Source of the DNA: Norana najaformis
Lineage: Eukaryota > Annelida > Clitellata > Crassiclitellata > Hormogastridae
Assembly: GCA_964023275.1 (NCBI GenBank)
Contig: OZ029922.1
Span: 4,611,196-4,675,195, forward strand
Direction: 5' to 3'
Length of the DNA: 64,000 nt
The position numbers were made by a program, and so were the translations under genes. The notes beneath the pieces are model-generated. The model was not told the DNA's origin. It was given only the letters and a program-made list of their open reading frames with translations, and searched no databases. Of this stretch, positions 13,437 through 47,200 are shown in pieces. The stretch's first letter is position 1; each line of letters begins with the position of its first letter.

Positions 13437-13660
13437 GACTGCTGGCTGACCAGCTGGTCATTTGACTGCTGGCTGACCAGCTGGTCATTTGACTGCTGGC
13501 TGACCAGCTGGTCATTTGACTGCTGGCTGACCAGCTGGTCAGTTGACTGCTGGCTGACCAGCTGGTCATTTGACTGCTGGCTGACCAGCTGGTCAGTTGA
13601 CTGCTGGCTGACCAGGGACCAGCTGGTCATTTGACTGCTGGCTGACCAGCTGGTCATTTC
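13437..13660. repeat. 27-bp minisatellite, about eight copies
   Basis: Unit GACTGCTGGCTGACCAGCTG plus GTCATTT, repeating every 27 bp from 13437, with a small insertion near 13615. Since 27 is a multiple of three, the minus strand shows an open 9-residue repeat (SNDQLVSQQ). CAGCTG is itself palindromic. No conserved flanking protein was seen. Confidence 0.93.
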
Positions 13661-14443: not shown

Positions 14444-14635
14444 GAGGTTCAGTCACATTATGAGGACAGACTGAATGGGGCTCATGTGGTGAATGGCGGT
14501 TGCAGCAGGGATTTACACAGCAGTAGAAATCAGATTCGTTTTTGATTTCTGTAGCCTCCAAAATATCATTTTATTGGTTCTTTATGAATTGACCGGTTGC
14601 TGGACTTGGGTGGGGATTAAAGACTAGGGTTGTAT

Positions 14636-14708
14636 GCTAGTCTGGTGGTTAGCATGCTGTACTGTCAGCTGAGAGGTAGGGAGTTCAAATCCCTGCCAGG
14701 ATGGAAAG
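14636..14708 (+). repeat. tRNA-like SINE fragment (tRNA-Asp-like)
   Basis: TGGTGGTTAGCATGCTG resembles an A box, CTGTCAG sits where an anticodon loop with GTC would lie, and GAGTTCAAATCCC resembles a B box. The T stem and acceptor stem do not pair properly, so a tRNA-derived element is likelier than a working tRNA gene. Confidence 0.35.
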
Positions 14709-15064
14709 ATGTTTCAAGATTTCTGTTTCACTTTTGCCACCTAGTGAGCTCAACTATAAAATAAATATACTGTCGGTGAAGAAGAGAACAGGCCTTCTGT
14801 CCTCGTATGCCGAGGCTGAGAAAATGAAGTCGTTAACACTTCATACTCATGGCTGCCTCTCAAGGCAAGCTTAAGGGACGGCTGTTCTTCTTAGGTAAGA
14901 CGTTCTAAGTAGATTTCATATTTAATGGCTGCTTGTATTACATTAATACTGCAGCCGTGGATTATTCAGAGGAGAGTGTTACTATGTTGCACTGCGTTGG
15001 GATTAGGTTGCCTGCTGTGTGGGAAAGAAGGATCAGGAAGACTTGGCCGAGTTGGTTAAACCAT

Positions 15065-15105
15065 AGACGTCGAGATAATCTAGCTGAATTATTATCTAGA
15101 CGTCT
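15065..15105. repeat. 15-bp inverted repeat with 11-bp loop
   Basis: Left arm AGACGTCGAGATAAT (15065-15079) and right arm ATTATCTAGACGTCT (15091-15105) are complementary except for one position. Similarity continues outward through TTAAAC on both sides. TGGCCGAGTTGGTTAA just upstream looks like a tRNA-Ser/Leu A box, but no B box follows. Confidence 0.8.
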
Positions 15106-15741
15106 GTGTTTAAATGCATCATTAGGGGGAGGCCAGTGGTGCAGCTGGAAACAGAAATTAACGAATGCAGACGTGAAGACCGTTCTTATTTGTCAACTGT
15201 TGTCCCTTAGTTTTTATGCTGATAAGTTTTCAAGCGGTTGCACCTGCAGAGGTCAGCGAGTGTTTTAGTGATGTCATTGGTTGGGTCATGGCCGTTCATA
15301 GCAGTTCTGTATGTAAATAAATCAAGGAATGCTATCAAATGGCAACTGGTAATAAATAATTGACTTAATGAGGACAGACTGCAAAAGAGTCAAGTGGCTC
15401 AGTTTGCAGATGCTTCTTAAAAGTCACTTAATCACTGTGAAACGACAACGTTCTACCTACTGTTCTACTTACGTGACCATAATTGCTTACGTGCTCCTCG
15501 TAAAGAAATCTCTTAAGTTGTGTGGCATTCAATAAATGCCTTCTGGCAGTTTTGGTGGGGTTGGAAGGGAGAGGTTTGTCTAGCAGCCTTACACATTGAT
15601 CCTCAACCAGGTACCTACCAGGTGTGGAAGACTATATGGCCAGCCCGGTCGGCTTCACGTGATTACATTTGTCTGTTACAAAATAAAATTTCTACAACGT
15701 GGTAAGTACACCTTGTTTGTTTGATGCAGTGTTATTGACTG

Positions 15742-16154
15742 AGGTCAAAGGCATTGCAAAGCTAGGTCAAAAACAGTGCAAGGTAAGGTCAGTGATAGTA
15801 CAAGGCAGGTCATTGACAGTACTGGGCAAGGTCAAAGGCAATGCAGGGCAAGGTCATTGACTGCAGACCAAGGTCAAAAAGCATATTGCAAAGCTAGGTC
15901 AGAAACAGTGCAAGGCAAGGTCATTGATAGTACCAGCAAGGTCAAAGATAGGTCAGTGCAAGTCACGGTCATTGACTGTAACCCAAGGTCAAGAGGCATA
16001 CTGCTAAGCTAGGTAAAAAACAGTGCAGGGCAAGGTCAATGATAATGCAAGGCAAGGTCAAAGGTAATGCAAGGCAGGTCACTGACAGTGCGAGGCAAGG
16101 TCAAAGGCAGTGCAAGCATCCCAAGGTCAGAAGGCGTATTGCGAAGGAAGGTCA
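15742..16154 (+). promoter_or_regulatory. Tandem array of 18 AGGTCA half-sites (10 as CAAGGTCA), ~22-bp period
   Basis: A degenerate tandem repeat in which nearly every unit carries AGGTCA on the plus strand. Starts: 15742, 15764, 15786, 15807, 15829, 15851, 15871, 15896, 15918, 15939, 15950, 15986, 16033, 16055, 16076, 16098, 16124 and 16149. Ten are extended to CAAGGTCA, and three of those to CCAAGGTCA (15868, 15983, 16121). Most spacings are 20-26 bp, about two DNA turns. NR5 receptors bind YCAAGGYCR as monomers; ERR-like receptors bind TNAAGGTCA. The array lies 8.7 kb upstream of the NR5B start codon. The motif positions are seen directly; a regulatory role is inference, and a minisatellite that carries the motif by chance is the main alternative. 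Confidence 0.45.
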
Positions 16155-17574
16155 GAGAAGACATTGTAGACCAGATCTCCTTTTAGCCAGAAAGAAATTT
16201 ATTTTATTTATTTTATTGGTATTTTATTGGTATTTTATGACTGCATTCCATTCTTTGGCTGATTCAGAACTTCAAAACAGTTATCTGGCTCCCTTCAGCG
16301 ATGTTTAATTAGGTGAGCAATGGCTTAAGAGTTTCTATGACCGCCAAGCTGTCCATGGCAATTCCGTGAGTAGTGTTTTTCTCAAGACCTACTGTAGATA
16401 AGTTGGGTTTAAGGCTTTTTTGTTTGTTATCATTTTGTAAAAATGACTGATTCCCTACAAAATAATGTATGATTCTCAAAATTACGACAGTTTTATAATG
16501 TTTGTTTGGTGAATTTTAATTGAGGTATGGATTATGTGAAAGAGACAGATAGATGTAGATCAGATAGCCAGCCAGGCAGACAGACAGACAGACAGACAAC
16601 TGTATTTAAGTTAGATTTCTAAACTGCTGTGTAATATTGCATCGACTTTTTACAGACATTGTGCTTTCTTTTTCCTGTTTTTATGCATTGTTGTATAGAT
16701 GGTATGAACATTTGTCTCATGCTTATACAGATTACTTACTTACTTCCTTAGATTTGACTCAAAGAATAAGTAGTGTGTCCTGAGACTTGTCTGGTTACTG
16801 ATTTGCATTTGATCGCCTGCTTGCAAGCAAGCGTTTTGCATCTGTTCACTGTCAAGTTAAAAGGAGCAACTGATTTAAGGGCGTTTTTCTTTAAAATGTC
16901 TGACTGTGATGCCTTGTCCGTTTGCTTGTTATGTACCACTCCAAGTTTTTGGGGAGCCATTGGTTGATACAGTCCTTTCTGTTGTCATTGGATGAAGAAA
17001 GAAATTTAAGCCCAAGTCAAGAATTTGTTAGAAGATTGAACTGAAGCATGTACCAGTATTTACAACTGGTTCCTTAAAAGTATTTCACCCAAATTTGTCT
17101 GATGACCAAAGACATAATTATGAGAAAGTCTGTGAGACTTAGCTGCAAGTTTTAATGGAGGTGGACTATTTCTGTTTTAAAATGGCTTTTGGCTGATTGT
17201 ATATTAAGATTAAATGACTGATTTGCTTCCAAGAAATAAACATCTGTGTTGTGGCATAGTGCTTGAATTTGCAATTTCATGCAGTGATGAACAAAGTAAT
17301 GATGGCAAATTATCCCAAGTTGAAGAGAAATCATTTTCATGTTACAGTGAACTTGTCTAGAATCATCAATGTTTTACTGTTAGATTAATAAAGCAGCTTT
17401 TGCTTATCAGTAATATAATGCAAAAAGAGCACCTTAAAGTCACTGTTTAAAATGTTTAATAGAGCCAAATAATTATCACCCTGCTTAGTCACAATAATAA
17501 TTATAATAGTATTATAAATTTAAATTTTAAAGTCCTGTTTGAAAAGTTTTTACAGTGTTAATTGTTCGTTTGCT

Positions 17575-18394: not shown

Positions 18395-19964
18395 GTACTT
18401 CTGGCTGCTGGCATTCACTGTGTGTGATGACCTTTAGATGATTCAGTCTTTAGTGTACATGTTTATCGACTGTTTTGTCCATGATGTTTGGCTAAAGATT
18501 AAGTTTTGAGCCAAAACTCTAGACTGAGCCACTCCACATATTTGTTTTGAAAATACAAAGTGTTTTATTTTGTGTTTGAAAATACTTTTCTGAAGTATTT
18601 TATTTTAGTATTTCCAAAGTACTTTGAAATAAAGTATTTTATGGAATGGAAATACTTTTTCTCGAAATACTTTCTAGGTGGAGAGTGATTGGCATCGTCA
18701 GTTGCTGTTGATTGGTTATTTTCGATTGGCAGTATGATCCACTGGTATAATCCACTGGTATGGTCTGCTGGTATGGTCTGCTGCAGCTGGTCAACTGTTT
18801 GTCTGCCACGTGATTTGCTGTCATAGACTGACTGACTAACACAGACAATGCCACTCGAGAAAGACGCGTAGGATCATGCCATTGCCTTGATGTCAACTGT
18901 TCAGACATTTTATTAGTAGTAATTGTCATGTAATTCCATTAACGTTGGTGATGTAGCCTTTGTTTGTCAGTATCAACATTCGAATAGGAATGTTTCATAG
19001 TGTAATGTACAGTTATGTACCCTGCTGTGATGGACCGTAAATTATTTCCAGTAGTAGTCCCGGTTTGGACTTGCTTGATTCAGATTTTTAGCCTTTGCTT
19101 TGTGAGTTTACTCCATAGGCTAAAAATGAGGCTATAATTTTTTAGACAGTAGGCTTAGCTAGTAGCTTAGTTTATGCACTCATTTAATGTCAGTTTTCAG
19201 TATTTAACTTACGACATTATGTTCTTTTGACCTGACGTGTGGCCTAATGTCACTACAGTAGAATGGATTCTTACTATATTAGCTAATTATAAGATGGAAA
19301 CTTTTCTTGTGTTGGTGTAAATGTCTTTTGAAGATGTACTTCTTTATTTGTTTATTTAAAGCAAGCACACGGGGGTCATATGGTGTACTGTCACTTTACA
19401 CGATAGGATGAAGAAGCAAATGCGTGGGTTGGATGCATTCCTTCAGTGCATGACTAGGCTTCTGATATCTCAGAATTGATTTCATGTTGTCGGATTAGAA
19501 ATTATTTTGCAAATCTGTACAAATGAAACATCTGGGTCAATGCCTCAGGTAATCGCAGTTCTGCACATAACCTATTTTCTTTCTGAATGCTTGCTGATGT
19601 AGGTTGGCAGTGGCCTTGAGTTGACTTGTTCCAGAGCCGTTTTCTCTTCTCAAGCCCATAAAGATTAGTTTTGCAGCTTTTGTGTAGCCTTGGCTATTTC
19701 TGGTTGGAGCAAAACATTGGTCTCTACTGGTCGGTTTTCTTTTGCTTTGACGCAAACAACGCCTGTCACTTTGAAGGCGTATTTGATTATGGTTCCATTG
19801 TTTTCAAGGTGGAAGCTTTGGCGAAGATGAAGCCGTGAGTTTTGTTTGAGAGAGAGAGAGAGAGAGAGAGAGTGATATCATGTCTGGGCTGGCAATTGTT
19901 GATTCCTGAAGCTGAATGCGAAGGAAAACATTCAGCAGTACGTTGGCCAAATCAACATAAAAAT

Positions 19965-20005
19965 CAATGGTTGCTGCCAGTGACAGGACTCGAACCAGGG
20001 TCAGT
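19965..20005 (-). repeat. tRNA-like fragment, minus strand
   Basis: GACAGGACTCGAACCAGGG is the reverse complement of a B box (CCTGGTTCGAGTCC). No complete cloverleaf was found; probably a SINE. Confidence 0.3.
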
Positions 20006-20840
20006 CAGTCTGTGGCAGTCGAAGGCTTTACGGACTTTATTTACCAAACTAAATGTCATCCATATCATTGTGCTGTGATGGCAGATCGTCCGGTGTGTAT
20101 GCTTCTGCCTCCTGGGAAGAAAGTCAATTTCATTAATGGCTCGAGAATAACGCGTTGTTCATGAGGCATTCTTCAGAATTCAGTTTTTCAACTCTTGTTT
20201 GGATGCTATGAATTAATGCATTCTTTTTCACCCTGGTTTGTTGATCGCCCAGCGGGGAGGTGTTCAATTGGACTCGGTTAACCTGAGTGTTGTAAGCATT
20301 TTTGTGAGACCATAGCTTGGATTGGGTGGGGTGCTGGATGCCAGCCAGAAGCCCAGAGCCTTGGAGAATTTGACAAATGATACATTCTGTAACTTTAGAT
20401 TGAGTTCTGGCGGTGCTGAAAGTTTTTCTTAAATTTTTCTGTGTAGATGTATGGAAGTGACAGTAAAAATTCTTAATATGCACCGTGTGTTTACATATGA
20501 TGTGTGCTTGTGATTGATTTAAATGTTAGGTTGTTAACCTTTTGAATTTAATGATACTCTCAGAAAAGCTTGTGGATTTTTCTAGAGTTACTTTTTGTGG
20601 AAGATAATTTTTTTAAATTAAAAAGAAACATATGGCTTGCATAGTGAATCTAAAACATCATGTTTCCTTATTTTTTTCTGGCTATCTGAAGTGAGCTGCA
20701 ATTCTTAGTTTTTTCATTCCTTAGAATTATCATTTCAGTAGTTAAGAACTTTTCCTATGAGCCGAAACTACAGCTGGTGCAGCATGCCTATCACGATGAT
20801 ATGCTGCAGTCAGATGTTGTTTTTCTTTGCTGTTCAGGGC

Positions 20841-20870
20841 CAAGGTCGTCTTTTGCAAGGACCAAGGTCA
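20841..20870 (+). promoter_or_regulatory. Two CAAGGTC sites 22 bp apart
   Basis: CAAGGTCG at 20841 and CAAGGTCA at 20863, the same orientation and spacing as the array at 15.7-16.2 kb. They are potential NR5/ERR-type monomer sites; function is unproven. Confidence 0.25.
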
Positions 20871-21194
20871 CTGAGGCTCAGCGCTTCAGTAGTTTACAGT
20901 TTCATGTGTAGAATTAGTTTGCATCTTTACACAGAAATCGTTTTGATAATGCAATGCAAAGATACAGCCTAAGAACAAATTTATGAGTGTTTGTAACTCT
21001 GGTGTGTTTACTGTTTTAATAATTTATTCGTTTGCCGGTGTCAAGCCATGCGAAGCTGTGGAGTTTTTCATTCCAGCTCAGTTGATTTACCAGAGCTGGA
21101 ATGAAATTCAGGAAGTATGTGCTGGTTTTTGGCATACTTGATCAAAATGAAAATTAATCTGTAATCTTTTTTGTTTTTCATCCATGTTGTTTTA

Positions 21195-21400
21195 GACTGG
21201 ACAAGCTAATGTAACTAACTCGTTCTCAACTTAAGACTTACCTTTTCCAGTCAGCTTATCCGCCATAGGGTGTCTCTGTTTCAGTGAACTGATTCTTTGA
21301 GTATTGGCCTGACTGCAGCTTGAATTTGTCACACCGTTGGTTGATGCTTTGTGCATTAGACACCAGCACTATAGAAGTTGCTAATTAATTATTAATAATA
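21195..21400 (+). mobile_element. LINE 3'-end fragment (CR1/L2-like), first copy
   Basis: Matches the tail of the LINE in receptor intron 4: CTTACCTTTTCCAGTCAGCT, GTGTCTCTGTTTCAGTGAAC, GGTTGATGCTTTGTGCATTA then GACACCAGCAC and a TTAATAATA tail. Only the C-terminal coding end and 3' UTR are present (5'-truncated). Confidence 0.7.
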
Positions 21401-23602
21401 CCTGATTTGGCAGAATGACTGATGACCGATTGTCATGAGTAGAGTCTGATTGAAGACTGAATAATCTTAAGACTTACTCACTTTCTTACTCACAGAATTA
21501 TGGACAAATTCGATGTGCTTGCAGGGAATTCCTAGTGAGATAAGGCGATAGAAGGCAGCTGGAAGACTTAAATAGCCGGTGAGCAGTCTTCTGCTTTGAT
21601 GCTGGAACTCTTGATATGAAACGGTGTGTTAATGTCCAACAGCTGAGATGTTTAAGGCAGGTTAGAGATGATTGCAGCGGCGGTGATATGAAAAAATTCC
21701 TGTTTGGCAACAACTGAATTTGAAAAACAACAGAATGAATGAGATGATCACTGCCTGGTACCAGCTATGGGTCGTACAGATGAATCCTAGTGAGTAGTCT
21801 GAGTTAATAGCATTCTGTGTTGTGGGAGACGCCTGGGCAGCAGATGTGCCAGAAACTCAGTCCCACAAAAGCAAGGATCTAGGTCTTCTCTGCCACCCTG
21901 TGTCTCTTTCCTCCGACAGCCAGGACAGAGTGTTTGCTGTTTAACAGTGGGGCACCCTTATGAGGACAGCGCTTGAGGTTTTTGCTGATTTAAGGGAGTT
22001 TCAAGCTGGTCTGTATGGATTTTATAGATTCCAAAGGCCAGATTATTTGGCTCAGACACTTACTTACCTGTTGATAAATCATTTTTACATTTCAGTGGCA
22101 AAGAGACAGTAATCTGTAGGTGATAGGCAGTGAAAACAGATCGAAAGTGCAACTCATCTTAAGAATAAAGACTCAACTGTCCAGGCATAAAACACATCCA
22201 CTTGCTCTGCCTAGCTGCACCTGCCTCTCATCATTCAGTCAAAGACTCTTTAGATGAAGATTCCTCTTCCAGCTTGCCCATCCACTTGACACTGCCTATC
22301 CATCCCACAGGACCAGGAACTAAAAGGTGCTTTACTAGCAGCTGATTCTTCCCTGGAGACAAGGTTAACATGACTGAATGAAAGCCATGCACAGAACACT
22401 TTTGAGAGAGAGAGTCCTGAGCCACCACTACTCAGATGGTCTAAAGCCAAAAATCACCCTGCAGTGGTCATCAGCTGTTACTTTAATTCTGGGGAGTTTG
22501 AGTGGGGGTTCCAGTCCAATAGTCTGCAAGTCTCAGTTCGGATTGAGTTTCTAAAGGCCCGCAGGGGAATTGTTTCCAGGATCTAGATTGTTATGTGACC
22601 GTAAAGTAGGTAAATATTTTATAACGCCTTTTTAGCAGGTCTCAAAGGCACAGCAGTTGTATGATTGTTCATTATTTGTTTAGAATGTCTATTTTTAGTA
22701 ACATGTGAGGAACTGTTTGTTGTCAGCTCAGTGACATGAATGCCATTTGCGTTTAGTTGATGTTGATCTAAGTTAAACTTTATTTAAAATAGCATAGTTC
22801 AATGCATCTTGCTTAGCTATTTGGTCCGGTGTTAAATGCAGGTTCTTGTTTCTGGCGGACTTGCACTTAACCAAGCACTCAAAGCCAATGAGTCACAACT
22901 GAGTAACATAATTTGTTCAACAAATTCCTAAAACAAATTGTGCAGGACTGTGAAAATGATGTCTAGATTTTCTTCATCTGTGCTGCTTCTGATGTACGTA
23001 AGCATCTTGAACCGGCATTCCAGACGACGTTTTTAATGTGTACTTTAGCAGTGCATTCGGCTTAACTCAAGCAGTAAATTGTGGAGGTAACATATTTACT
23101 TGCTTGTGTATAGGAACGACTCAGACGCATGACCTTGACATTCCATGGATAGTCATCTGTCCAAGTACTAACTAGGATCAACGTTGCCGAATTTCATTGT
23201 GCTTCCCAGTGTTGTATCAGCAGCATCAAGCTGTCATGCTGGAATGATGGTGGTAATAATAATCGTGGGTTTTTTCGTGTGTGAGTAGCTGGCAGGAATG
23301 GATGTTATTACATGTAGTAAAATTTGCAGCTGCCTTTGATCTGTTGCTGGAGTCATTTTTGATTGAGTATAAACATGATTCTGGTGGAGATGGTTCACGG
23401 AAGAAGTGGGAGGGAGGTCATTAACCTGGAAAGGGATCCAGGAACGATGAGAAGTCGTCCCAGAGAAGCGTCTTCTCTTGAGGTTGGGCTCGCTGGATAG
23501 ATGATTCTGCTGGTGAATTATTTAGGTGGCTTCTGAAATTTGACCTGTTTTCACTGGACCCAGTTGTTTTTGCTGATTGTTATGTTGCTTGTCAAGAGAG
23601 GC

Positions 23603-23668
23603 CGTGTGTGTGTGTGCCTGTGTCTGTGTGCGCCTGTGTCTGTGTGTGTGTGTCTGTGTGCGCCTGTG
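23603..23668. repeat. (TG)n/(TGTCTG)n microsatellite
   Basis: GTGTGTGTGTGCCTGTGTCTG and similar. It creates a Cys/Val-rich frame that is not a protein. Confidence 0.85.
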
Positions 23669-23951
23669 GCCGAGTCTGTTGGTCTGCCATCGGTTCCTCT
23701 ATCTCTGTCTTTTGACAATCTCTGACTTGGCAGACAAACTCAACCTTTCTGGCAGTCTGAACTTGGTCTGGCAGTCTGAACTTGGTCCAGCTGCCAGAAA
23801 AGCACCTATTGTTGTTAGCCTTCTTATCTTGATACTCCTACCAACCTTTGAGGCTGTTCAACGCCATGTATCAGCAAGGTCATTTTGTCTGACTTCAGAT
23901 TACTTGAAGAGAAACCTGGCCATGGCTAGTTCGGTTTTGTTTTTCATGCAG

Positions 23952-24171
23952 TAGATCTAGTAGGGGGTCACTTGCTGCATCTGGATTGAGTCAGGCCGAG
24001 TTCTGTGCGAAAGCCATGACCAGTGGAAAGCTGGCCTGTATTGTGAGAACGGAAGATGGCCGACTTAGAACGTTCAAGGCCATAAAATTTCCAGGGTACA
24101 AAGATTATGAGCGTATGGTAGAGAATCTGTTACAGTTCTTCCTCGGTGAAAAGATGGCTGAAGATGTGTGA
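23952..24171 (+). CDS. Unrecognised open segment, possible exon
   Basis: A frame open from a splice-acceptor-like TTTTCATGCAG (ending 23951) to a TGA at 24169-24171. It contains LACIVRTEDGRLRTFKAIKF followed by PGYKDYERMVENLLQFFLGE and ends KMAEDV. Its composition is unusually protein-like for this region: mixed charged and hydrophobic residues, with no low-complexity sequence. I do not recognise a domain. It could be an alternative or terminal exon upstream of the receptor, a piece of an unseen gene or mobile element, or chance. Confidence 0.25.
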
Positions 24172-24830
24172 GCTAAGAAACGTATGGTCTGTGCGTAATG
24201 AGCAATGTGTTTAATTATATCTTGACAGAAGAATTAGGTGACTGCATTACTGGAAGAACTATGAACGATATGACTTTGATGTTGTCTGTGGAATGGATTT
24301 TATCTGATCAGCAGAGGTTTGGAGACGTTATGTCAGAGAGCGAATGCACAGTCAGATGAGTCAGTTGTAATGGATGGTTAAAGTTGAAAACTGGGTTACG
24401 TTGATGGTCATGTTTGCAATTAGGTTTCAGAAACTAACGGTTGTTTATCTTTGAAAGCAGATCAAAAGGGGACAGAGACATGTGGGAAAGAGGCTTCTTT
24501 GGATGTTTGCCATGTATTATTGGTGGTCACGACTGTACATCAGGGCAACATAATGGCTTCAGCAAAATACTTTATATTAGCAAAATACTTTATATTAGCT
24601 GCAGTATTTCTTCTCTGTCCACTTGGATTTTGTGGGTGAGTGCATTTATGTGGTTTATGATATTTTATGTTGCCAAGTGTTGTCATAGTTAGATCCCCAT
24701 TCAGTGCTTGCCATGTGTCCATGTTATAAACATTGCTTGTGTACAGAGAGATAGTGAGGCATTCAAATGTTTGACTTCTGAACTTTACCATTTCCTGTCT
24801 AGTGATGGTCAGTCTTGTTGTGGCTGTTTG

Positions 24831-24938
24831 CAGATGATCGTTTACGATGTCAACCAATGGTGGCAATGGAATATCGCCCGTCCTTCTGGCTATTGCGGAG
24901 AAGCTGTCTTCCGGTGGCAATGGAGCAGTCTCGCCTAA
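24831..24938 (+). promoter_or_regulatory. Splice acceptor and overlapping upstream ORF at the receptor start
   Basis: GGCTGTTTGCAG ends at 24833 and is a plausible acceptor. The base after it begins an ATG (24834) that opens a 34-codon frame ending at 24938. This overlaps the receptor's own ATG at 24847 in another frame. If the spliced leader starts here, scanning ribosomes would meet the 24834 ATG first, which would tend to lower receptor translation. The sites are visible; use of the acceptor is inferred. Confidence 0.35.
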
Positions 24939-27900
24939 ATCCACGGAACTCGCTTCCAGCAGCACGGGATTGAACGCGCGTCCTGTCTTCACGCTCAAAG
25001 TACGGCTTCCGTTTTCACGACTGTCAGATTTGCTGAATCTGAAACCATATTATTGGAAATGTTGAATATGAAAGGAACTATTTATGTGATCTGTTTTTTA
25101 CTACTCCCGTTAAAGATGGCCTTTAATTGATTTTTATGAGACTGATTTTTATGATTTTTTTAAGGGTTAGGGTTGTTGATGAACCTGTGTTAGATTGCAG
25201 ACATTGCATGAATTGGAAGAAATTGCCTGGCTAGAGTGAAATGGATGCCTGCTGGTGACCGAATGTATATAGAAATTTTGCAGTGGAATTACACTGGTGA
25301 CGTCAGGTTGCGGGCCAGATGGCCACCATTAGACTAGTTGTGCTTGTGTTGTGTTTACGTGTTTTCTCCACGGAACACCCGGATCGTGACCTGTAAATCA
25401 CTTAAGCTTGGCAGCTGAATGAGTACACTTTAAAGTAGTTTTTGGAAAGTGACCTTGAGCTATTTGTAGTTTTTTTTAAGAACCTGGCATCAGCTGAAGT
25501 ATTCCCTTGGCTGATTCACTTTGTCGAATGCGTGGCAGGAAGTCAGTCTTTGTCTCTGTACGAGTTATTACTTAGTCAGTTGCCAATGGTTTCTGATAGT
25601 CCATGGATTCTTTGGACTGATAGAATCCACCATTGTAAGTTCAATCATTGGTTTAGCTGGCTCTTTTCCTGGCAAAGCTTGAGTTTGAAGTAGAAGTCGT
25701 AAGCCAAGACCTGATGTGATGGAACAGCTGTGGAATGTCTAACTGCATCACATCTGGTCTTCAGTGAACTCCTCGAAATAAATGATAGAAGACGAGATTT
25801 AGGTTACATACTAAAACCGTCATTGGTTCATTAGTAATGTCAATATAATGACATGTTTTCCAGAAAAATATCTAAAATTGTAGCAGAATATTTATATTTT
25901 AGGAAGGACAGACAATCATAATTGTTCAGAACTACCATCCGGAAGACCGAGCGGAGGATGGTGGGTCGACGGGAGAACGCAGTGAGGGTGAAAGCGGAGA
26001 CCTGGCAAACACAACTTCACCAGATGGCTTGATTTGGGATCAGCCAGGCAGACCATTCCGAATAATGAGTGGCGGACTTCACACAAACGGTGTTACGCTG
26101 TTGGTTCAGTCCAACGATGTCGCAATGGCTTCACCAGCACAAAGTGGTTCTCTCAGTGACCAGAAACATTCCAGCGGGGAGTCGTACGAGCCTTGTCCAA
26201 TCTGCGGTGACAAGGTTTCTGGTAAGACCTGGGTGCAGCTTCGTATCTGGAATTTAATTGCTGTTGTTCTGAATTTGTTCATGTTTAAAATGATGTTTAG
26301 CTGTTTTAGTCATGAAGATTATTAAACTTACGTAATGTAACAAAGTTACCTAATGTGTACCATGTATTTGCATTTGTAGTACAATTTTATCTTAGACGTG
26401 TCTCGCCCTTTAGGGATACTGAATGAATGATATATGCTCGTACTTTGTGGAGTTTTTGTGACGAGAGTTTTTAACGCTGCAGTTTCTCTGCCAGAGAGTT
26501 TTTAACTCTGCAATTTCTCTACCAGACAGTTTTTAACTCTGCAATTTCTCTGCCAAAGAGTTTTTAACTCTGCAGTTTCATCGAAATAAGACTTTTAGAG
26601 GTGATGGCAGGCAACAATGGCAATGATCCAAGCAGCATGAATTGGCTGGGGAAGTCAAGCCAGAGGAAGGTCTGAAATGCCTGCTTCTGTGTACATCCCA
26701 GATAAAATATTAAGTAAACCTATGTACGAAACTGATGTGTTTGAAGAATGTTACACAGATTTGTGTCAGCAATTTTCTGCAGTTAATGAAGTGTTTTTGC
26801 AAACGTAGGCTACCACTATGGGATCTTTTCCTGCGAAAGCTGTAAGGGCTTCTTCAAGCGAACAGTCCAGAACGGCAAATCGTTCACGTGTCGTCACAAG
26901 GGCGAGTGTTCAATTGCGATAACAAACCGCAAGAAGTGCCCTGCATGTCGCTTCAGGAAATGTCGATTGGCTGGAATGCGACTCGAAGGTAAAGAGCTCT
27001 TGCTAGTCGATCCAAACACTTTAGGCTGTCAGTCTGTCTTCTTAAAGATTTTCGGTAACATCAAACTCACTGTCAAGTTGTCTGCAGATTTTCTTTGTCA
27101 TAATGTTATTTCTTTATAGTGAAAAGGAAATTGCTTCTCTGCTTCATGTTTGCAGTATTTGGCAAAGGAAACACATTTTCACATCTGTATATAATAAAAG
27201 GCTTTGACACATATATGGTCCCTGGTCCATTTAGTACTTTTAGAGCAGATGAATGATAACGCTATCGCCATCTTGTAGAGGACTTGAAAACAAAGTAATT
27301 TCTTTGCATATGGCCAGGGAGAGGGAATGGGGGTAGGGGAGGGAATGGAGGGCTAGGGGAGGGAATAGAGGGCTTGGGAGGGACAGTGACAGAAGGGACA
27401 TTTTGGCAAAATCGTATGCAGATGCTTTGCACAGGATTGGCTAGTTTGAATTTTGGTGTCACCGTTTTGTGAGTATTGCTTGCACTGTTCCTTAAGCCTT
27501 AACTTAACAATAGTGATGTACGTATGATTATTTCTGTCTGGCACCTTTAAAGAACCCCTTTGTCTTCCTTAGACGGGGACAGACTGGGCTACTGCAGGTT
27601 TTAAGAATAAGATTGTTGGTGCGAGAATCACAAAACGTGAGATTTAATTCATTTAGTGCTTTAGTTGAACTAGGCTTATTAGAGCAGAAGTTGTTGCTAA
27701 TGAGCTATCACCTGATCATCTGCAATTCTTATGCGCTCTGCTGCCTCAGGCATCTCTCATCTGCATTTGGAAATCATCCTTTATTTATCTAAGAGACGCG
27801 TAGTCAAGTTGCAAACGCTTTCAAATAGGTTGCATAAAAGGAGACTGCTTACATTTTTTGTGGTAGACTGTTACAATAGAAATTTCTTGGAGCCTCTGGA

Positions 27901-30900
27901 GTACTGCATACAGTCAGTCTTCTCAGCAGAGCATTGTGAGCGATGAGAAAAGGTTGCGCATATAGTCGGCATCTGCAGAAAAGAGCTTTTCATGATTGCA
28001 TTTGATTGATAGACCTTTAGATGTGCTGTCATGCATGTATCTGTGCTTAATGTACCACCCGATCCAACAAATTAGATGGAAATGGCATTGTTTCAAGTAG
28101 AGTAAAGGATGGTTTGTAGTCTACTATTTATAGCTGCTAGTAAACAACTAAATTCCTGTCTTCATTTATTTTTGCAACTCCAAGCGGTTAATCTGTTGCT
28201 GGTAAACAAGTTAGGTCATCTGAATCCAGATGAATTAAGGCTGCTGGTGTATCTTGTAGGTCTGACCAGTGCTTCAGTATAGCGGCTTAATGGTAATGAA
28301 ATTCACCCCTCATCCGCACAGTTGATATTTCCTTTCCTTGTAACAGAAACACTTAATTTCATGAAGCAACCTTTGATTAACTCCATTCTTAGCCAGTGGA
28401 AGTAGACAGACCCAAATAGGGTTGTCTGAAACTGATGTTTCTTGATTATTTTTATTAATTAGAAACTTTATAGCACCTTGATTATTTTTATTAATTAGAA
28501 ACTTTATAGCGCCCGTGTCTTATGCTCAAGGCATCAACCGATGGCACACCAAATTCTAGCCTCAGTCAGATAGGCATCCAGAAAATCAGTCCACGGAAAC
28601 AGAGAGGCGGCCGACAGTGGATGAGCCATCTGAAAAAATTCTGATTTGTTCAGAATCAGATCAGTCAACAGTTGCTGAAGCTTAGCAGCCAGTGAACTTG
28701 TGTGGGTGTTGATGTAATTCAGCCACTGGTTGTTTATTTGTAGCAATTCGTCCCGACAGAACTCGCGGTGGACGAAGCAACTACGAGGGTTGCTACACGC
28801 GAACCCAGCCAAACAGTTCAGAACGGGTCGCACAGCCGTCGCCGCCCTCCCAGTCTCTCCCGGTTAAACGCAGCATCAGCGGAATCCCTCGGCCGTCGTC
28901 CAAGACCCTCAATCACTCGTCGTCCTCTCCCTCTTTGGCTTGCTTCAACTCAGTGCCTAAACCAGACAAGCCTTCCTCTCCCGGCCGGTTGAACAGCTTT
29001 ACGCAGGTCCTGGAAGATCTTCTGGCGGCCGAGTCACTCGTAGAGGACGAAGAAAATACAGAGATCGAAAATCAGGTGTCGCTCACGAGCAACGATCCCT
29101 TTGAGTCACTGTTCCGTCTCATAGATCATTGCCTCTACAAGATTGTTCGCTGGGCACGAAACCAACGGGATTTTGCAAACATATTGGTAAGCTCAACTCT
29201 GGAACCAACCCCTTCTTGCCTATCGATTTTCTTTTGACTGACTGCCTGTGAATAAGCTGCTTCCCACAACTTAGCTTTCATTGGATGCTGTAGAAATCTC
29301 AACATTACGATGGAGTGTTATTCTAATGGCCAGAATGACTGATTCCTAGGCAATTCCTAGGCAACCGACTGCTATTTTTTAGTAGGACACCATTAAAACA
29401 TGAGTTTTTATATCAGTCAATCAGCCCCTTTACGGATATAATTGCAGTGCCACTTGAATCAGTGCCACTTAATCATTTTACGGATATAATTGCAGTGCCA
29501 CTTGAATCAGTGCCACTTAATCACTTTACGGATATAATTGCAGTGCCACTTAATCACTTTTACGGATATAATTGCAGTGCCACTTGAATCAGTGCCACTT
29601 AATCACTTTACGGATATGTTTGCAGTGCCACTTAATCACTTTTACGGATATAATTGCAGTGCCACTTGTATTCTTTTATATGTTAGCCTATCTGTATGAT
29701 TTCAGATCAAATCAAATGATTGTTCGCTTGTCTGCCTTTGTGTAATTTAAACTGAACCTTTTAAGAGTCACAGAGAAGGGAATTATTTCTTAAGGGTTGT
29801 CCATTAAGGACGTCTGCAAAGAGAGGGGAGGAGGAGTCACCCAAATGCGGACAAGGGGAGGGAGTTATTCCCAATGCAGACATCCACATCTAAATTTGGT
29901 ACATCCAGTTATTTTGGTACAGTCTGTACTGCATTGAATCTGATTAGAGTCCCTTTGTTGGAAATGGCATTGTAAAGAAATCCCACACTGTAGCAAAGTT
30001 AGCCTGCAAGATACATGTGCCTTAATTCATCTAGGCCTTAGAACTCCTTTGGAGTGCGGACGCCCGCAAAGGGACTGGGGAGGGTAGTGCACCACATTGC
30101 GCCATTAGGATACTGCTCGACGGTCATTCACTGGGATGTCATTTCTATGCTGATGATACCCAAATTTACAGTTTGTTTGACAGTTTCTCTTGTCACTCGT
30201 CTGTGCAGCTGTTGTCTGATGCCTTTGAGGAGATGCAGTCTTGGATGGTGGCAAATAAACTCCCCCTTATCCCATCAAAAACTGAACTTTTGCTACAGGG
30301 CACTCCGCAGCAGCTTAAGAAGTTTGAATGGCTTAAATTGTTAAATCTTGCTGACTCGCTTGTTGAGTTAACATGGTGCCTGTGACTTGGACATTGTTTT
30401 TGATTCTATGTCTCTCACCGACTATGTAAATGATGTTTAAAAATCATCGTATATGTATATTTGTGACATATGCAGAATTAAGCGTTATGCCCCATGTCTT
30501 CAAGGATATCTCTGGCAAATGTATTGGTCTCCCGTCACCTTGATTGCTGTAACTCGCTTCTTACTGGTATTACAAAGTAAAACATGCAGAAACTACAGCA
30601 AATTCAGAACTCCTTTGCTAGAGTCATAACTGATGCATCCAAATATGAGCACATAACCCCTGTACTTAAATCTGTGCAATGGTTTTCTGTTCAGCAAAGG
30701 ATTTTTTCAGTTGAGGCCTATAGTTTTTTAAAACATTGAACTCTGGCCAACAGCAGTACTTAAAATCAGTCCTCCCTCCCCAGACCTCTCATTATTATGC
30801 AACCAGGTCGTCTGATTGTCTTTCTCTGTGCCAAAAACTAGAACTGTTCTAGGTGGATGAACTTTTTCGGTAACTAGACCTAAATTTTGAAGCTCTCTTC

Positions 30901-33535
30901 TTGCATCTGTTCGTTCAGCTCAGTATCTTTTGTCGTTTCGTTCTCAAGTGAAGATTTACCTTTTTGAGTTGGCTTACCCACCGCAGGCTGCCTCTGTTTC
31001 AGTGGACTGAAATTATTTGTATTGAACTGATCACAGCTTGGTTTTGGTGGGCCATCGGTTGATGCCTTGTGCGTTAGACAACAGCACGCCATAGGAGTTG
31101 CTGAATTATTAAAAATAATAAATGTAGACAGTGGGGAGGGGTACACAGTAGGTCATTTTTTTGGGATGTCCTTTATGGATGACCTCTATGCATTGTTCAG
31201 AATTGTCCATTTCATAAACACTTGATTTGATATACTGAATGGCTCCTTTATGGTCAGTAGTACCTGTTCCAAAGCCTGTCTCTCTCCTTGGACTGACCTT
31301 CTAGATATTGACCTGATTGCACCTTGGCTTTGATGCACCACTGGTTGATGCTTGTGCATTAGACACCGGCACAATAGAAGTTATTAATTACAATTACAAA
31401 GCAAATCCAAGGTAGATACATGCATTTAGCTGGAAGTTCAAAGCTTGCTGTCACCAGTGAATGTCTTCAGTTATAGCACAAACTGTGGATATCGTCTGCT
31501 TATATACAAGCCTTTTCTAGTTTGTTTTTTCTGTATTTACGATTTTTTTTAGCAAATTATGAGCAAGAACCGAAAATATGTAATATCACAACGACTATTA
31601 ATTTTAATGTTTACATTGCAGTAGCAATTTCTCATGGAAAATTTTTTATTCACTTCTAAACTTTTTACAAAGTTTGCCTTGAAATTACTGTTGTAATTTA
31701 AAAAGTAAACTATATCTGCTTTTATATTAATTATTTTAAGTTCCTTGTGGTGATGTGCAACTTGTGCGCTCTCACTGCGCCAATCTGTGTAGTATGCTCT
31801 GCTCCCTTAAGTTCAGCCTTGGTAGTTTGACCTTTATTTACTGTCTTGGGCCTGCCCAATCCTCGCAAATTTCTTTCTTTCAAGGCAGAAACTTCCATAG
31901 CTCAAGAACTCTGGTTGCTTTTTGAGCAATTTTGTTGTAATAAATCAACCTATATATAGGGTATAAAAACATCTTGGATATGAACAAACTTCTGCTGCTT
32001 ACCTCTCCGTCTAGACACAGACTGACTAGCTTAAGTAATTTACAGATGTTTTGTACGAATTGAACAGTTTCAGTAGAACATCACCTTTCACTGACTGTGA
32101 ATGCAAATCATCTCAGTAACATTAGTAAGAAACTAAATACATCCAACTGCAGAGCAGTGCATGCAGTCTGCATGTACGGTTAGGCCTTAGGCCCACACAC
32201 ATGACATTCCTACTATAGATTTCTGATAAAATTCAATTTGTGCTTTATGGCTACAAAGCATGATATATTGCAAATTTTAGTGATGCAATTAATTCAATTG
32301 AAATCAATGCCTGCTTGTAGTTTTTTACGCAAATTTCAATAATTTGCCGTGTTTGGTTGTTTACAGACGGATGACCAGATTGTTTTGCTACAGAACTGCT
32401 GGGCAGAGCTGTTGTTCATCAACTGTTGTTGGAAGTCACTGAAGGTTGCTGATGGTCTCCACGTCGGCAAGGATCACGTCATCACGACGGAGATGGCCAA
32501 GGATATGGACATAGAAAAAGTAACACAGCGTCTTCTCGACTACACAAATTTTCTACGGAATTATCAGGTGGACATCTATGAAATCGTTGCCCTAAAGATG
32601 TTGCTTCTTCTGTCACCAGGTTAGCCATTAAATTTTTTCCATCTGAATCCATCTGCTTTCTTTGTTTCGTGTATATGTATTCAGAGATAATGTAATGCCA
32701 TGATGACATCAACCAACGAAGCCAAGCTATTGTGCATTAAAGACTTTCTCAAAGTTGCGATAGAGTGACCCCAGGAACACTCAAACCTGCACTCTGCATA
32801 AATCTGATCTGATCTGTAAGCTTCTGTAGCACCTTTATTGTAACACTGTTTCCAGTCATCTGGTACAATACATTACAGTACATTGGGGCATCACTTGAGG
32901 ATAGTCACATTCCAAAATGATAATTCTTTGGAAAGAACCAGTCATATCTATTACAGACCTGTGAGTAACTAACCAATGAGCTGAAATCTGAAAAAGTCAT
33001 GTAGTGACTAGGAAAGATCCTGTATATAAGTGTAATTCTGCATGATTTGAATTGTAAAAACAAAGCCAAAATCATACAGGAATTTAACCTTGGGACATGG
33101 CACAGAACTTACATTTGGCAATATGTTAATTTGTGCTTGAAAGGGCAACATGCAGGAATTAATGTTGGATGATATATGTTTAATCCCATACTGGGTGTTT
33201 GATAGGGTTTTCTAGTTTGCAAGTTGAATAGTGTGTTTTGTGGATCAGGCATGTGCTGAGGTGAGATATTCTTCATTTTAGATGTTGACAACTTGAGCGA
33301 CCCCGATGGAGTGAAGGCGTACCAGGAGCACATGCTCGACATATTCATGACGTATACCAACGAACACTATCCTCACATACCAAACAAATTTGGACATCTG
33401 CTGGCAAAGCAGGCTGAACTGTCGCGTACGTGTTGTATGGCAAAAGAACTACTGATTCCACACGAGAGATCGGGCAAGGTTCCAGATAAAAGCCTTCTGC
33501 ACGAACTGCTCAAGGGAGACATTGCTCTTCACTGA
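24847..33535 (+). CDS. HR39: NR5B-type nuclear receptor (HR39-like / FTZ-F1 family)
   Basis: A DNA-binding transcription factor of 533 aa. Exons: 24847-24999, 25903-26221, 26809-26988, 28744-29186, 32367-32619 and 33282-33535; all have GT/AG borders, phases agree and the total is 1602 nt. The two zinc fingers span about residues 149-215, with P-box CESCKG and second finger [20 protein letters not shown]. The FTZ-F1 box [14 protein letters not shown] follows directly; in this family it reads the bases 5' of an AGGTCA half-site. After a Ser/Pro-rich hinge, the ligand-binding domain begins near residue 335 ([20 protein letters not shown]) and ends with an AF-2-like helix, [30 protein letters not shown] and RKKCPACRF resemble Drosophila HR39 (NR5B) more than FTZ-F1 or SF-1 (NR5A). 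The ATG at 24847 is chosen because an in-frame stop lies at 24835 and a good acceptor (TTTGCAG) ends at 24833. Non-coding 5' exons are probably upstream. Family is nearly certain; the NR5B assignment is likely. Confidence 0.93.
26465..26580. repeat. 36-bp tandem repeat, about three to four copies, in receptor intron 2
   Basis: GAGTTTTTAACTCTGCAGTT then TCTCTGCCAGA repeats with few changes. GAGTTTTTAACTC is itself a near-palindrome. Confidence 0.8.
27317..27384 (+). other. G-rich tract with G-quadruplex potential in receptor intron 3
   Basis: GGGAGAGGGAATGGGGGTAG continues as further GGG and GGGG runs with loops of one to seven bases on the coding strand, meeting the usual G3+N1-7 pattern more than once. 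Confidence 0.6.
28436..28512. repeat. Direct duplication of ~37 bp next to a dispersed repeat
   Basis: CTTGATTATTTTTATTAATT then AGAAACTTTATAGC occurs twice in a row, the second copy running into GCGCCCGTGTCTTATGCTCA. This is the end of the dispersed family also seen at 52560. Confidence 0.75.
28505..28640. mobile_element. Dispersed non-coding repeat, copy in receptor intron 3
   Basis: TTTATAGCGCC then AAGGCATCAACCGATGG matches the end at 52580 (TTTATAGCGCC then AAGGCTTCAGTCGATGG). It carries no coding signal and is cut off shortly before exon 4. Confidence 0.5.
29200..29315 (+). mobile_element. SINE-like dispersed repeat (copy 1)
   Basis: AACCCCTTCTTGCCTATCGA, GCCTGTGAATAAGCTG, GCTTTCATTGGATGCTGTAG then AAATCTC match the element at 63,770-63,890 with moderate divergence. 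Confidence 0.7.
29425..29668. repeat. Tandem repeat (36/48-bp units) in receptor intron 4
   Basis: TTTACGGATATAATTGCAGT then GCCACTTGAATCAGTGCCACTTAATCA repeats about five times; some units lack the GAATCAGTGCCACTT block. Confidence 0.85.
30040..31110 (+). mobile_element. Decayed LINE (CR1/L2-type) with reverse-transcriptase remnants
   Basis: Frameshifted coding pieces of a non-LTR reverse transcriptase: [14 protein letters not shown] (catalytic YADD, 30140-30181), [19 protein letters not shown], a region like [33 protein letters not shown] and, near the end, [20 protein letters not shown] 3' UTR with GGTTGATGCCTTGTGCGTTA and a TTAAAAATAATAAATG tail follows. Several frameshifts and stops make it inactive. 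It sits in the same orientation as the receptor inside intron 4. Confidence 0.85.
31225..31392 (+). mobile_element. Second LINE 3' tail in receptor intron 4
   Basis: GATTGCACCTTGGCTTTGAT, GGTTGATGCTTGTGCATTAG then ACACCGGCAC and TTATTAATTAC match the tails at 21,400 and 31,100. It is a separate, 5'-truncated insertion about 120 bp past the larger copy. Confidence 0.7.
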
Positions 33536-40788: not shown

Positions 40789-41445
40789 ATTTCTTACTTA
40801 ATTTATTTTTAATGTAAATATACTATTTCTTCAAATCGAAGAATGATTCTGCAAACTCTATCACTCTTATTATGTATTCTTTCGTTGCAAGGGAATGGAG
40901 GCGATTTGACAGTTATGAAACTGGTTTTAGGTGACTTCTCTAAAACCTGTTTCAGCGACCACTATATTCTAATACTAGAACTGAAGCTTCCATCGATTGC
41001 AATAAATATTGAATGGAGAAGTGAGCCTTGTTAAAACTAAACGGTTCACTCCTGTTTCAAATATTTACGCTAGAGTGTTGGGAAATCGAACAGATCGAAC
41101 TTGCTGAGACTTATAGCTTATATAGACCTACTGCCTTTGACGTCCTTGATTCTGAGTTCATTTTCGAAGTACCGAAAAATATAGCCCTTGCCTGTCGACA
41201 GGTATCATTGTCTCAGTACCTCATTCATTCAGAACTTCAAGTGTAGCAATTGTTCTTCTCGAAGCCTTGGCCAACAATAACAGCTAGCTGGTCTTGACGG
41301 GCGATCTCAGCATCCACTTCAAAGTTCTAGCGTCGGCCTACGTCGACGTACTTACCCACCCATACCTCTGGTGGCTCACTAACCCAGCCAGAACACACCA
41401 ACAATGTTGGGCCAAGGCCATAAACACTACTGGTGAAGGGACACT

Positions 41446-44293: not shown

Positions 44294-47200
44294 CTGTCTG
44301 TCTCTCCATTTCTCATTATGTGTAAATGTATATGCTTATGCGTGGATACATTTGACTGAATACAGAGACTGTGCGTAAGCGTCGTCTGTTGGAATGGGTT
44401 CAGTCGTTGGTTCCAGCGATGGACATCAACGACTTCAGCACCAGTTGGACGAACGGAGTCGCCCTCTGCGCCCTCATGGACGCCCTCGTTCCCGGCGCCT
44501 GTCCGGAACTGGCCAAGCTCAAACCCTACCACAAACTCCATAACATCCGAATGGCGCTCAAACTCGCCAACAAATTCTTCGCGCTTCCTCTGGTCAGTAT
44601 TCGTCCGACTAACATCATCAAATGCATCGGTCGACTTCGTGACCTTCACTGGCTTTCCGTTGAATGGCGGATTAAGTTTCAGATTGCATGCTTAACCTTC
44701 AAAGCCAAGAATACCAGCTTTCCATCTTATTATACATTGTTAACACCATTTCGTCTTCCTAGATTGTTGCGTCCTTCTGTTGCTAGAAACTATGTGTAGT
44801 TGCTAATGCGTTCTGAGGTGTTACAGAAATGTTCAGATGCAAGCATTTATAGCATTTTCTCGCCTTTTCACGAATTCCCACCCTGATCCAGTGAATCCAC
44901 AGCCTTCCCATTTATCTCAGTTTAAACACAACCCACCTTAACAGCTCCTCTCCCCATTCTCTCTCTGGCCTTCTGGTAATCGGACTTGGTTCTTGATATA
45001 AGTGGGATAAAGGATTTTTCATTTACTGGTGTCAAAGGACTTTTTTTTATCAACTACGCATGCGAGCGATTGATTCGTGGAAACATAACATGACATTATA
45101 TATCATAACTTACCTCGTTCAGTCTGTTTAAGGTTCTTAACGTTTCCTGTTTCCCGGCTTCAATGTGCATTTCGGACAACATAAGGAGAGCATTATTAAA
45201 TATTTATAGTTGTATTGTGTATTGTATTGTATAGGCTGAGATTTGAGTTGTTCAGAAGACGTTTAATCTGTGGTAGAACCACTGCTAAATCTCTGTTAGA
45301 ATCATGTCTCATACTAAAAACTGCATGCATGCTTTGTATCAGAATGTTGTTTAAATATATAGACTGCCTTTCGAGCGGAAGAAATTGCGACGTACGGCAG
45401 CCATCACGACAGGAGAGTCTACGAACTGTTGATTGTCATCCGGATGCTTCACCTAAGGGCCCATCCCTCTGAAGGTGCACGCGCAGCCTGGGAATTCGGA
45501 CGAACCCCGAAGGACTCGGGCAGCAAAGGAGGAGAAGGCGGAGCACTGCCTGCAGCCGAGGACGAACAAGCGTCCTCGATGGCCTACTACCGGAACATTG
45601 CCAAGCTATGTCGCGTAAGGAAGAGTGGGCATCAGACGGGGATTGTCGGAAAGACATACACATTCGATGTCTGGTTTCCGGATGGACTCAACCCAGACAG
45701 GATTCGCGTAGATGTCTTTCCGCTGGAGGACGTTGACGGATTTTCCTTGGATGAGCAGAGATCTTCGGTTGATGTACCTGATCATGCTCTCTGCAGCGGA
45801 ACGTCCGTTGAATTACCGGACTCAGCGATGAACGAAGGGCTGCCACAGTCGCCTGATGACCAGACAGACGAATCCACTGATCAGAATCTCAGTTTAGCGG
45901 AGGTTGATTCGAAAGCAACTCAGCACGATGGCCTGGTTTCGACGTCTTGTAATGAAAGCGGCCAAACGGACAACACAAATCCTCAGAAATGCCAAGAAAT
46001 CAAAACCATACCAGTCGTTTCCGCGCTAGAAAACGGTCTACGGAGAGTCACTTTCTGTCCGAAGTTCGTCGGCAGCTACCAGGTGAGTGCGACCTTTGGC
46101 AAGGCCGACATCATGGGAAGTCCAATGGTCGTCAGCGTGTCTCCTGATTTCGGAAGTCAGTCTTCACTGGACGAACTGCCTCGCAAGAGACTCACTTTTG
46201 CAGAGGCAGCGGAAATCATCATCACCAAGGCGAGGAGCTCTCGCATCTACAAGCAGCTGTTGCAGAACGAACGTGTTTCAGCCAAGAATTCCCTCTACGA
46301 TGTCGCAACGGCAGTCCTTCGACGTACAAGCAAGGTCAAGCGGACCTTGACCTTTCGAGGCGGCGGCCATAGCCAGTCACTAATCAACTCAGAGAAGACG
46401 GTCGTTAAGCGGAGGAAGATTCTTAAGCAGACGATCACCAGAGGTGGTCAGGAAATCGTGATTGAACAGCCATCCATTAGCATCGATGAATCAACCAACT
46501 GGTCAGCTGCAGCAGCCAATGCCTCCGTCGGCGTTTCCACTGCCTCCGAGCTCTCCAGAAATTTGCGGACTCTCCCAACGAGCACGTCCACTAACCGTAC
46601 AGCGGATGAAGCTATTGATGATGGAGAGAGTAACTCAAGTAATAGCAACAAGTCAAGGTGCTCTCTGTCGGCTCCAAGATCTAGTGACGCTGTGTTCAGT
46701 TGCAGTCCACTGTCGTCTGTCATCGAGAAGCCTCAGAGTGGAGACCTACTCGAAACGGAAGACATGGTGTGGTGGTCAGTCGAACCAGAAAGTCTCCGCT
46801 TCACTTCGTCCACCCATCCACACGTACAAGAGTTCAGTGACTCGAGAAACAGGGATGGGATAATCCAGCACAACGAAGACGCATCCAAAGATAATAATCC
46901 TGTGAGCATCTGTTCTGGAGCGCAGTCTGCAATCGAAGCTGCGGAGGATAACGAGATTGCTAAGGATGCTATTGTTGCGTTGAGTGGCAAGAAAGATCAG
47001 AACGAGAAGAAGAGAATCGATAAACAGCCAGACGATTTGGAATTCAGAAGGACGCCAGTTTCACAGGCAGACGTCGGAAGCAGACGACATCAGTTCAAGA
47101 TGTCTTCAGTCACAGGAAGTAATCTTGAAAAATATCGGCAACCAGCAGTGGGTATTAACAACGACACTTTTCTGATGGGCATCGACTCAGTGGACGGCGA

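Follow-up and report, generated by a model that had tools for sequence, protein, structure and literature searches.

A degenerate AGGTCA minisatellite beside a putative NR5B receptor gene in Norana najaformis

The array of AGGTCA hexamers at 15742-16154 is an old, degenerate minisatellite with a higher-order repeat. Judged by its letters, what it has retained is the bare half-site and not an NR5 site. Coincidence is the likeliest reason for its place beside an NR5-type receptor gene, and this proximity offers no more than a weak lead. On balance, we lean towards an ordinary old minisatellite whose unit held AGGTCA by chance, in a minisatellite-rich genome. The first-pass annotation of this DNA had named a minisatellite with a chance motif as its alternative to an enhancer, and this alternative fits at least as well as the enhancer does.

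The array contains 18 exact AGGTCA in 413 bp, all on the forward strand, from 15742-15747 to 16149-16154. Ten of them are CAAGGTCA, and 14 of the 17 spacings between neighbours measure 20-26 bp: in these three counts we agree with the first-pass annotation. The remaining spacings are of 11, 36 and 47 bp, the two longer ones because two units hold one-letter variants of the hexamer. Read from hexamer to hexamer, the array thus comprises 20 hexamers, 18 exact and two variant (CGGTCA and AGGTAA). Many copies of a site within a short stretch are one feature of a homotypic cluster of transcription-factor sites. The window, by which we mean the whole 64-kb stretch of DNA analysed, holds 66 AGGTCA against a shuffle mean of 35.6, a number reached by none of 100 shuffles; the 48 hexamers left without the array are ordinary among permuted hexamers.

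Table 1 Features of the array, of the dispersed NR5-type sites and of the receptor gene.
Feature	Position	Strand	Description
Degenerate minisatellite	15742..16154	+	Unit length 11-26 bp, 22 bp being commonest; TRF and hexamer reading
Higher-order copy A	15764..15895	+	132 bp; alignment, TRF period-115 row
Higher-order copy B	15896..16010	+	115 bp; holds variant CGGTCA at 15966; alignment
Higher-order copy C	16011..16148	+	138 bp; starts with variant AGGTAA; alignment
YCAAGGYCA sites	2042, 4005, 6459, 6797, 19611, 20862, 23130, 24074		Motif count, outside the array
YCAAGGYCA sites	25450, 41412, 41944, 50887, 51848, 53751, 60126		Motif count, outside the array
Five dispersed YCAAGGYCA	19611..25458	.	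At 19611, 20862, 23130, 24074 and 25450
Receptor, first modelled coding exon	24847..24999	+	Spliced model
Receptor exon 2	25903..26221	+	First half of zinc finger 1 at the exon's end; spliced model
Receptor exon 3	26809..26988	+	Remaining DNA-binding domain; PF00105, E 2e-22
Receptor exon 4	28744..29186	+	RGGR-type C-terminal extension, hinge, start of ligand-binding domain
Receptor ligand-binding-domain exon	32367..32618	+	PF00104, E 4e-8; end uncertain by a base

TRF reports a period of 22 bp with 16.9 copies and 65% matches, and a second period of 115 bp. Such head-to-tail units lie within the 10-60 bp or so of minisatellites. The alignment reveals the higher-order unit, a block of 5-6 monomers and 115-138 bp present in three copies; as it varies with program options, three variants of it are given here. 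Copy B includes an 11-bp unit (15939-15949), a pair of hexamers with a 5-bp spacer that we take to be DR5-like.

The array may have started from a 22-bp monomer that held AGGTCA by chance and gave rise to head-to-tail duplicates. Next, 5-6 monomers would have been copied together as a block until three copies of it stood in a row, and the spacers would have decayed afterwards by substitutions and small indels. Blocks and decay are both visible in the alignments, and the order of events is our reconstruction. With its duplicated blocks, its decayed spacers and a head-to-tail unit close to 22 bp, the array resembles other degenerate higher-order minisatellites, from which it differs in having one hexamer unusually well kept. 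Turnover could itself retain the hexamer with no protein involved, if units sharing AGGTCA kept recombining or slipping. We consider this very improbable: unit lengths do vary while the hexamers stay whole, and gaps the size of a monomer distinguish the higher-order copies, but six bases are short as an anchor next to entire 22-bp units.

A location within a mobile element was rejected. Two pairs of inverted repeats occur within 14500-17500 and neither flanks the array on both sides. Against the rest of the window, blastn with the array gives short matches only (best E 0.087) and nhmmer gives none. The first-pass annotation had proposed to look for other copies of the 22-bp unit in the genome (608 Mb in 17 contigs): a search with the array, skipping simple repeats and common words, retrieves the array alone. 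We also discarded a coding array, as Pfam gave nothing above cut-off on the two frames that run through it. No RNA or tRNA genes were reported, the tRNA scan being set for the bacterial code.

The sites had further been described as helically phased, a claim that has to be withdrawn. At 10.5 bp the phase coherence of the 18 sites is R = 0.14, below the mean of 0.21 for random placement, and 68% of 5000 random placements are as coherent or more. R amounts to 0.36 at 10.4 bp and 0.23 at 10.6 bp; across 9.0-12.5 bp it peaks at about 0.5, at 10.8 and 11.2. Many neighbours stand 22 bp apart, which deviates from two turns by about 34 degrees; this drift, together with the indels, loses the common face of the helix.

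The next gene found downstream of the array is an NR5-type receptor, with its modelled ATG at 24847, 8.7 kb past the array end. Here the first-pass annotation was right, as confirmed by the zf-C4 match and the modelled start. The four best PDB matches of the zinc-finger exon are SF-1 and NR5A2. The assignment to NR5 follows from this nearest relationship, the RGGR extension and the ligand-binding domain. Spliced together, the five exons modelled, as far as the ligand-binding-domain exon of Table 1, give one stop-free frame of 449 residues. The open frame of exon 4 has no match in Pfam and weak matches to RXR ligand domains, at best with E 0.13. An acceptor-like AG at 24832-24833, just 5' of the modelled ATG, suggests a further 5' non-coding exon, so that the array may lie upstream of the gene or in its first intron. 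No protein gene nearer the array emerged from Pfam on 18 open frames (1-25 kb, the array's two included), none being above cut-off.

After RGGR, the receptor's box resembles what we take to be that of Drosophila HR39. This likeness, with a departure of the box from that of group 5, makes the receptor likely a putative NR5B (HR39) and not an NR5A. The group-5 box, from which ours departs after RGGR, is quoted in a passage of PMC4388693 that names FTZ-F1 and HR39 together. Drosophila FTZ-F1 and DHR39 compete for one site, according to a passage of PMC4070562, which shows that site sharing between NR5A and NR5B receptors is possible. Within an intron of the gene, at 30035-30382, a stretch with YADDTQIY matches reverse transcriptase, though not above the family cut-off, and is probably a retroelement remnant.

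According to PMC11102866, NR5A2 is a monomer binder of TCAAGG(C/T)CA whose RGGR loop reads TCA. The array contains no such sequence. Its extended sites are CCAAGGTCA in 3 of 18 cases and GCAAGGTCA in seven, and TCAAGGTCA is absent. The first-pass annotation had read the ten CAAGGTCA as cores recognised by NR5 monomers: the ten are there, but the reading omitted the base at -3. This position is G in 14 of 18 sites, versus T of the NR5 motif, and mismatches only once in 14 comparisons between higher-order copies. CA at -2,-1 precedes 10 of the 18 hexamers; between pairs of higher-order copies these two columns mismatch in 8/28 cases and so behave like spacer. In the same global alignments the hexamer mismatches in 5/94 cases and offsets +6 to +15, summed, in 37/168.

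An autoregulatory enhancer in which the receptor would bind the array's CAAGGTCA as a monomer, as originally proposed, is thus unlikely in our estimate. Parts of the proposal hold: the array is real, the gene is NR5, and AGGTCA is retained; the ten CAAGGTCA and the RGGR extension, the TCA reader in that account of NR5A2, argue for it. The full NR5 motif, a preserved CA and the phasing at 10.5 bp are what it lacks. Since the NR5 extension is missing, the NR5 receptor 8.7 kb downstream is presumably not what the array was made for, even if receptors satisfied by a bare half-site may bind it incidentally.

A further point in favour of NR5 autoregulation lies outside the array, where the window carries 15 YCAAGGYCA, 12 of them TCAAGGYCA; one tally of 16 in the window includes the array's own tail. 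With tandem repeats masked, the motif alone among 2,100 CpG-free permutations of YCAAGGYCA reaches 15, and 2 of 6,300 permutations of TCAAGGYCA, the motif itself included, reach 12. In the unmasked window the excess is weaker (0.3% of 1,970 YCAAGGYCA permutations reach 15). A third-order Markov model yields 2.9 YCAAGGYCA per window on average and 8 at most in 150 runs. In twenty control stretches of 10 kb, taken at round coordinates on contigs C1-C15, the motif occurs 11 times over 200 kb in all (Fisher P 0.0003), and four flanking stretches are at background level, with 2 in 40 kb. Genome-wide there are 29,054 YCAAGGYCA versus 16,065 for the backward pattern, or 3.0 per 64-kb window, of which the 15 sites represent about fivefold (Poisson P 8e-7). 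The motif is clumped at the start of C1: over the initial 0.9 Mb of this contig, provided that its matches there are listed in full, the ratio of variance to mean is 1.6 (14 bins), and with this clumping applied about three windows in the genome are expected to reach 15.

The sites number 4, 0, 3, 2, 0, 2, 3 and 1 in successive 8-kb bins of the window, and so show no concentration at either the array or the receptor gene. The site at 50887 falls within an open frame with a filamin match, and those at 41412, 41944 and 51848 share repeat sequence in their flanks, which is not in register with them. As a calibration, 20 motifs were tallied against permutations. Those that stand out are YCAAGGYCA, its part TCAAGGTCA (7/3000 permutations) and CAGCTG, a palindrome and so counted twice; GGAATG (2/60) and ATGCAAAT (26/735) are mildly high. 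We regard the excess of dispersed sites as a lead for possible NR5 autoregulation, one that is independent of the array.

The array and the 15 sites could be combined into a locus-wide autoregulatory domain, with the receptor on the dispersed sites and bare-half-site partners on the array as a constrained multivalent platform in the 5' region or first intron of the gene; such a domain is improbable. The receptor sink raised in the first-pass annotation, a decoy array that would titrate receptor protein, is barely credible. Its 18 half-sites in 413 bp are few against the 29,054 YCAAGGYCA of the genome, which make titration by the array implausible, and we dismiss it on these numbers.

What remains to be accounted for is the hexamer itself. 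Setting aside the incomplete unit at the end, exact AGGTCA occurs in 17 of 19 units. Pairwise identity among these 19 is 0.96 in the hexamer columns; in the others it is 0.50 under one alignment and 0.62 under another. We compared this with a neutral simulation of a growing array with turnover, substitutions only and block duplications of 1-6 units, in which the best hexamer was taken over all phases and no detection bias was built in. A hexamer survives unchanged in 17 or more of the 19 units in none of 34,308 simulated arrays at a spacer identity of 0.46-0.58, in 6 of 11,153 at 0.58-0.62 and in 17 of 10,852 at 0.62-0.66. An earlier simulation with fewer phases gave 0/3,965 at 0.46-0.52, 1/3,874 at 0.52-0.58 and 6/5,374 at 0.58-0.66.

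The three higher-order copies point the same way. Variable columns are 2 of 30 among ungapped motif columns versus 25 of 69 among others (Fisher P 0.003; 0.001 and 0.00003 in the two alternative alignments), where a motif column is one with AGGTCA in any copy, a definition that somewhat favours the motif. When the motif mask is slid from -10 to +15 bases (26 shifts), the mismatch rate is minimal exactly at shift 0, and conservation falls at both edges of the hexamer, at offsets -1 and +6. Certain spacer columns, at offsets -3 and +11, are retained as well as the hexamer is. Within the array of this one genome, then, sites are retained over spacers, as in a homotypic cluster.

This contrast between hexamer and spacers is real, and its weight is limited, because a worn array without a core goes unseen and this array was chosen for its core. 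A retained hexamer keeps a worn array recognisable, so part of the contrast may be detection bias. A panel of the window and the 200 kb of control sequence contains other degenerate arrays that keep a hexamer, with fewer copies or simpler units: TACCTT at L019:4516-4776 (a simpler unit) and ACATCA at L006:5271-5350 (5.3 copies). In this panel no other non-simple array equals ours in copy number, spacer wear and strictness of the core together.

Receptors such as RXR and COUP-TF need just AGGTCA. A second possibility, of less weight than that of an ordinary minisatellite, is that the array forms a constrained homotypic cluster: such a receptor would occupy many of its bare half-sites weakly and regulate the NR5 gene or a neighbour, while selection would keep the hexamer and let the spacers drift. 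The identities, on which simulations, higher-order copies and shift control agree, speak for it, as does the drop of conservation at both edges, which a binder of the bare half-site would give. The well-kept spacer offsets and the detection bias left out of the simulation count against it, and so does the frequency of AGGTCA arrays in the genome, which show no clear link to receptor genes.

The pattern AGGTCA-N14-17-AGGTCA-N14-17-AGGTCA matches 1135 times genome-wide versus 441 times for its reverse, overlaps counted. Among the matches listed (C1 to C3:49.1 Mb), merging by hand left 35 distinct places with differing units, some of them 5-11-bp repeats. Ten of the 35, chosen for spacers that looked diverged, have 3-9 AGGTCA in 801 bases with variable spacers. 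A zf-C4 search of the genome gave 126 exon matches. The window's own array being excluded as the starting point, one of the 35 listed places lies within 10 kb of a zf-C4 match (expected 0.07, P 0.07) and one within 20 kb (P 0.13); at 60 kb the number rises to two (expected 0.38, P 0.05), and at 100 kb it is still two (P 0.13). Among the places listed, the link between AGGTCA arrays and receptor genes is not significant, suggestive only.

The nearest of those listed, C2:32426618 (L032, G000:C2:32426200-32427000), is a five-unit AGGTCA array with units like AGGTCATATGACRTATTACA. Some 7.4 kb separate it from another zf-C4 gene, on the 3' side of whose DNA-binding exons it is located, and as a second such neighbourhood it favours the constrained cluster. 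The first finger of this receptor, CESCKAFFRRNAM, is by eye not NR5-like. Nor, by eye, is C10:28920046, the sole candidate inspected for a second NR5 gene, which we set aside.

Several findings support the ordinary minisatellite. The array is tandem, with both a monomer and a higher-order period; the genome has AGGTCA arrays built from different units at many other places; neither 10.5-bp phasing nor the NR5 extension is kept; and other degenerate arrays also retain a hexamer. Moreover, the window has 22 non-overlapping tandem arrays (period of 12 or more, three or more copies), the AGGTCA array included, and the chance that at least one of 22 units holds AGGTCA is 0.28 if units are random window segments. 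Three of the other 21 hold another textbook core in at least 3/4 of their copies. Against this explanation stands the retention of the hexamer, which exceeds that of the usual neutral simulation and holds between higher-order copies.

Tandem repeats with a factor core in their unit can become enhancers, and many lookalikes are coincidence. GGAA microsatellites are enhancers bound by EWS-FLI1 (PMC2654724): these too are tandem repeats whose unit is a transcription-factor core. Binding was measured there; our array has long, diverged spacers. Mouse SINE B1 repeats contain sites for NR5A2 (PMC11102866), likewise NR5-class sites in repeat DNA; the motif is TCAAGG(C/T)CA there, of which the tandem array has none. 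Among the titles and abstract openings listed from open-access papers, none concerns an AGGTCA minisatellite at a receptor gene. The present case offers a way to weigh enhancer and coincidence from one genome, by the retention of core over spacers, the specificity of the flanks and the genome-wide count of arrays with the same core. Should the constraint hold across species, receptor binding would be what maintains this minisatellite.

The window shows some further features. At 29428-29668, between two receptor exons, is a tandem repeat of CAGTGCCACTTAAT-type units, each with what we take to be an NK2-like core, another example of a factor core in a minisatellite. A 27-bp repeat in eight copies occupies 13437-13659; its unit holds the palindrome TGACCAGCTGGTCA, an E-box with half-site-like arms. 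Farther downstream, an open frame at 44356-44796 has a calponin-homology domain (PF00307) and 50492-51076 a filamin repeat (PF00630), the latter also matched below cut-off in the 859-residue frame 45363-47939. These calponin-homology and filamin frames (44356-51076) are probably one downstream gene.
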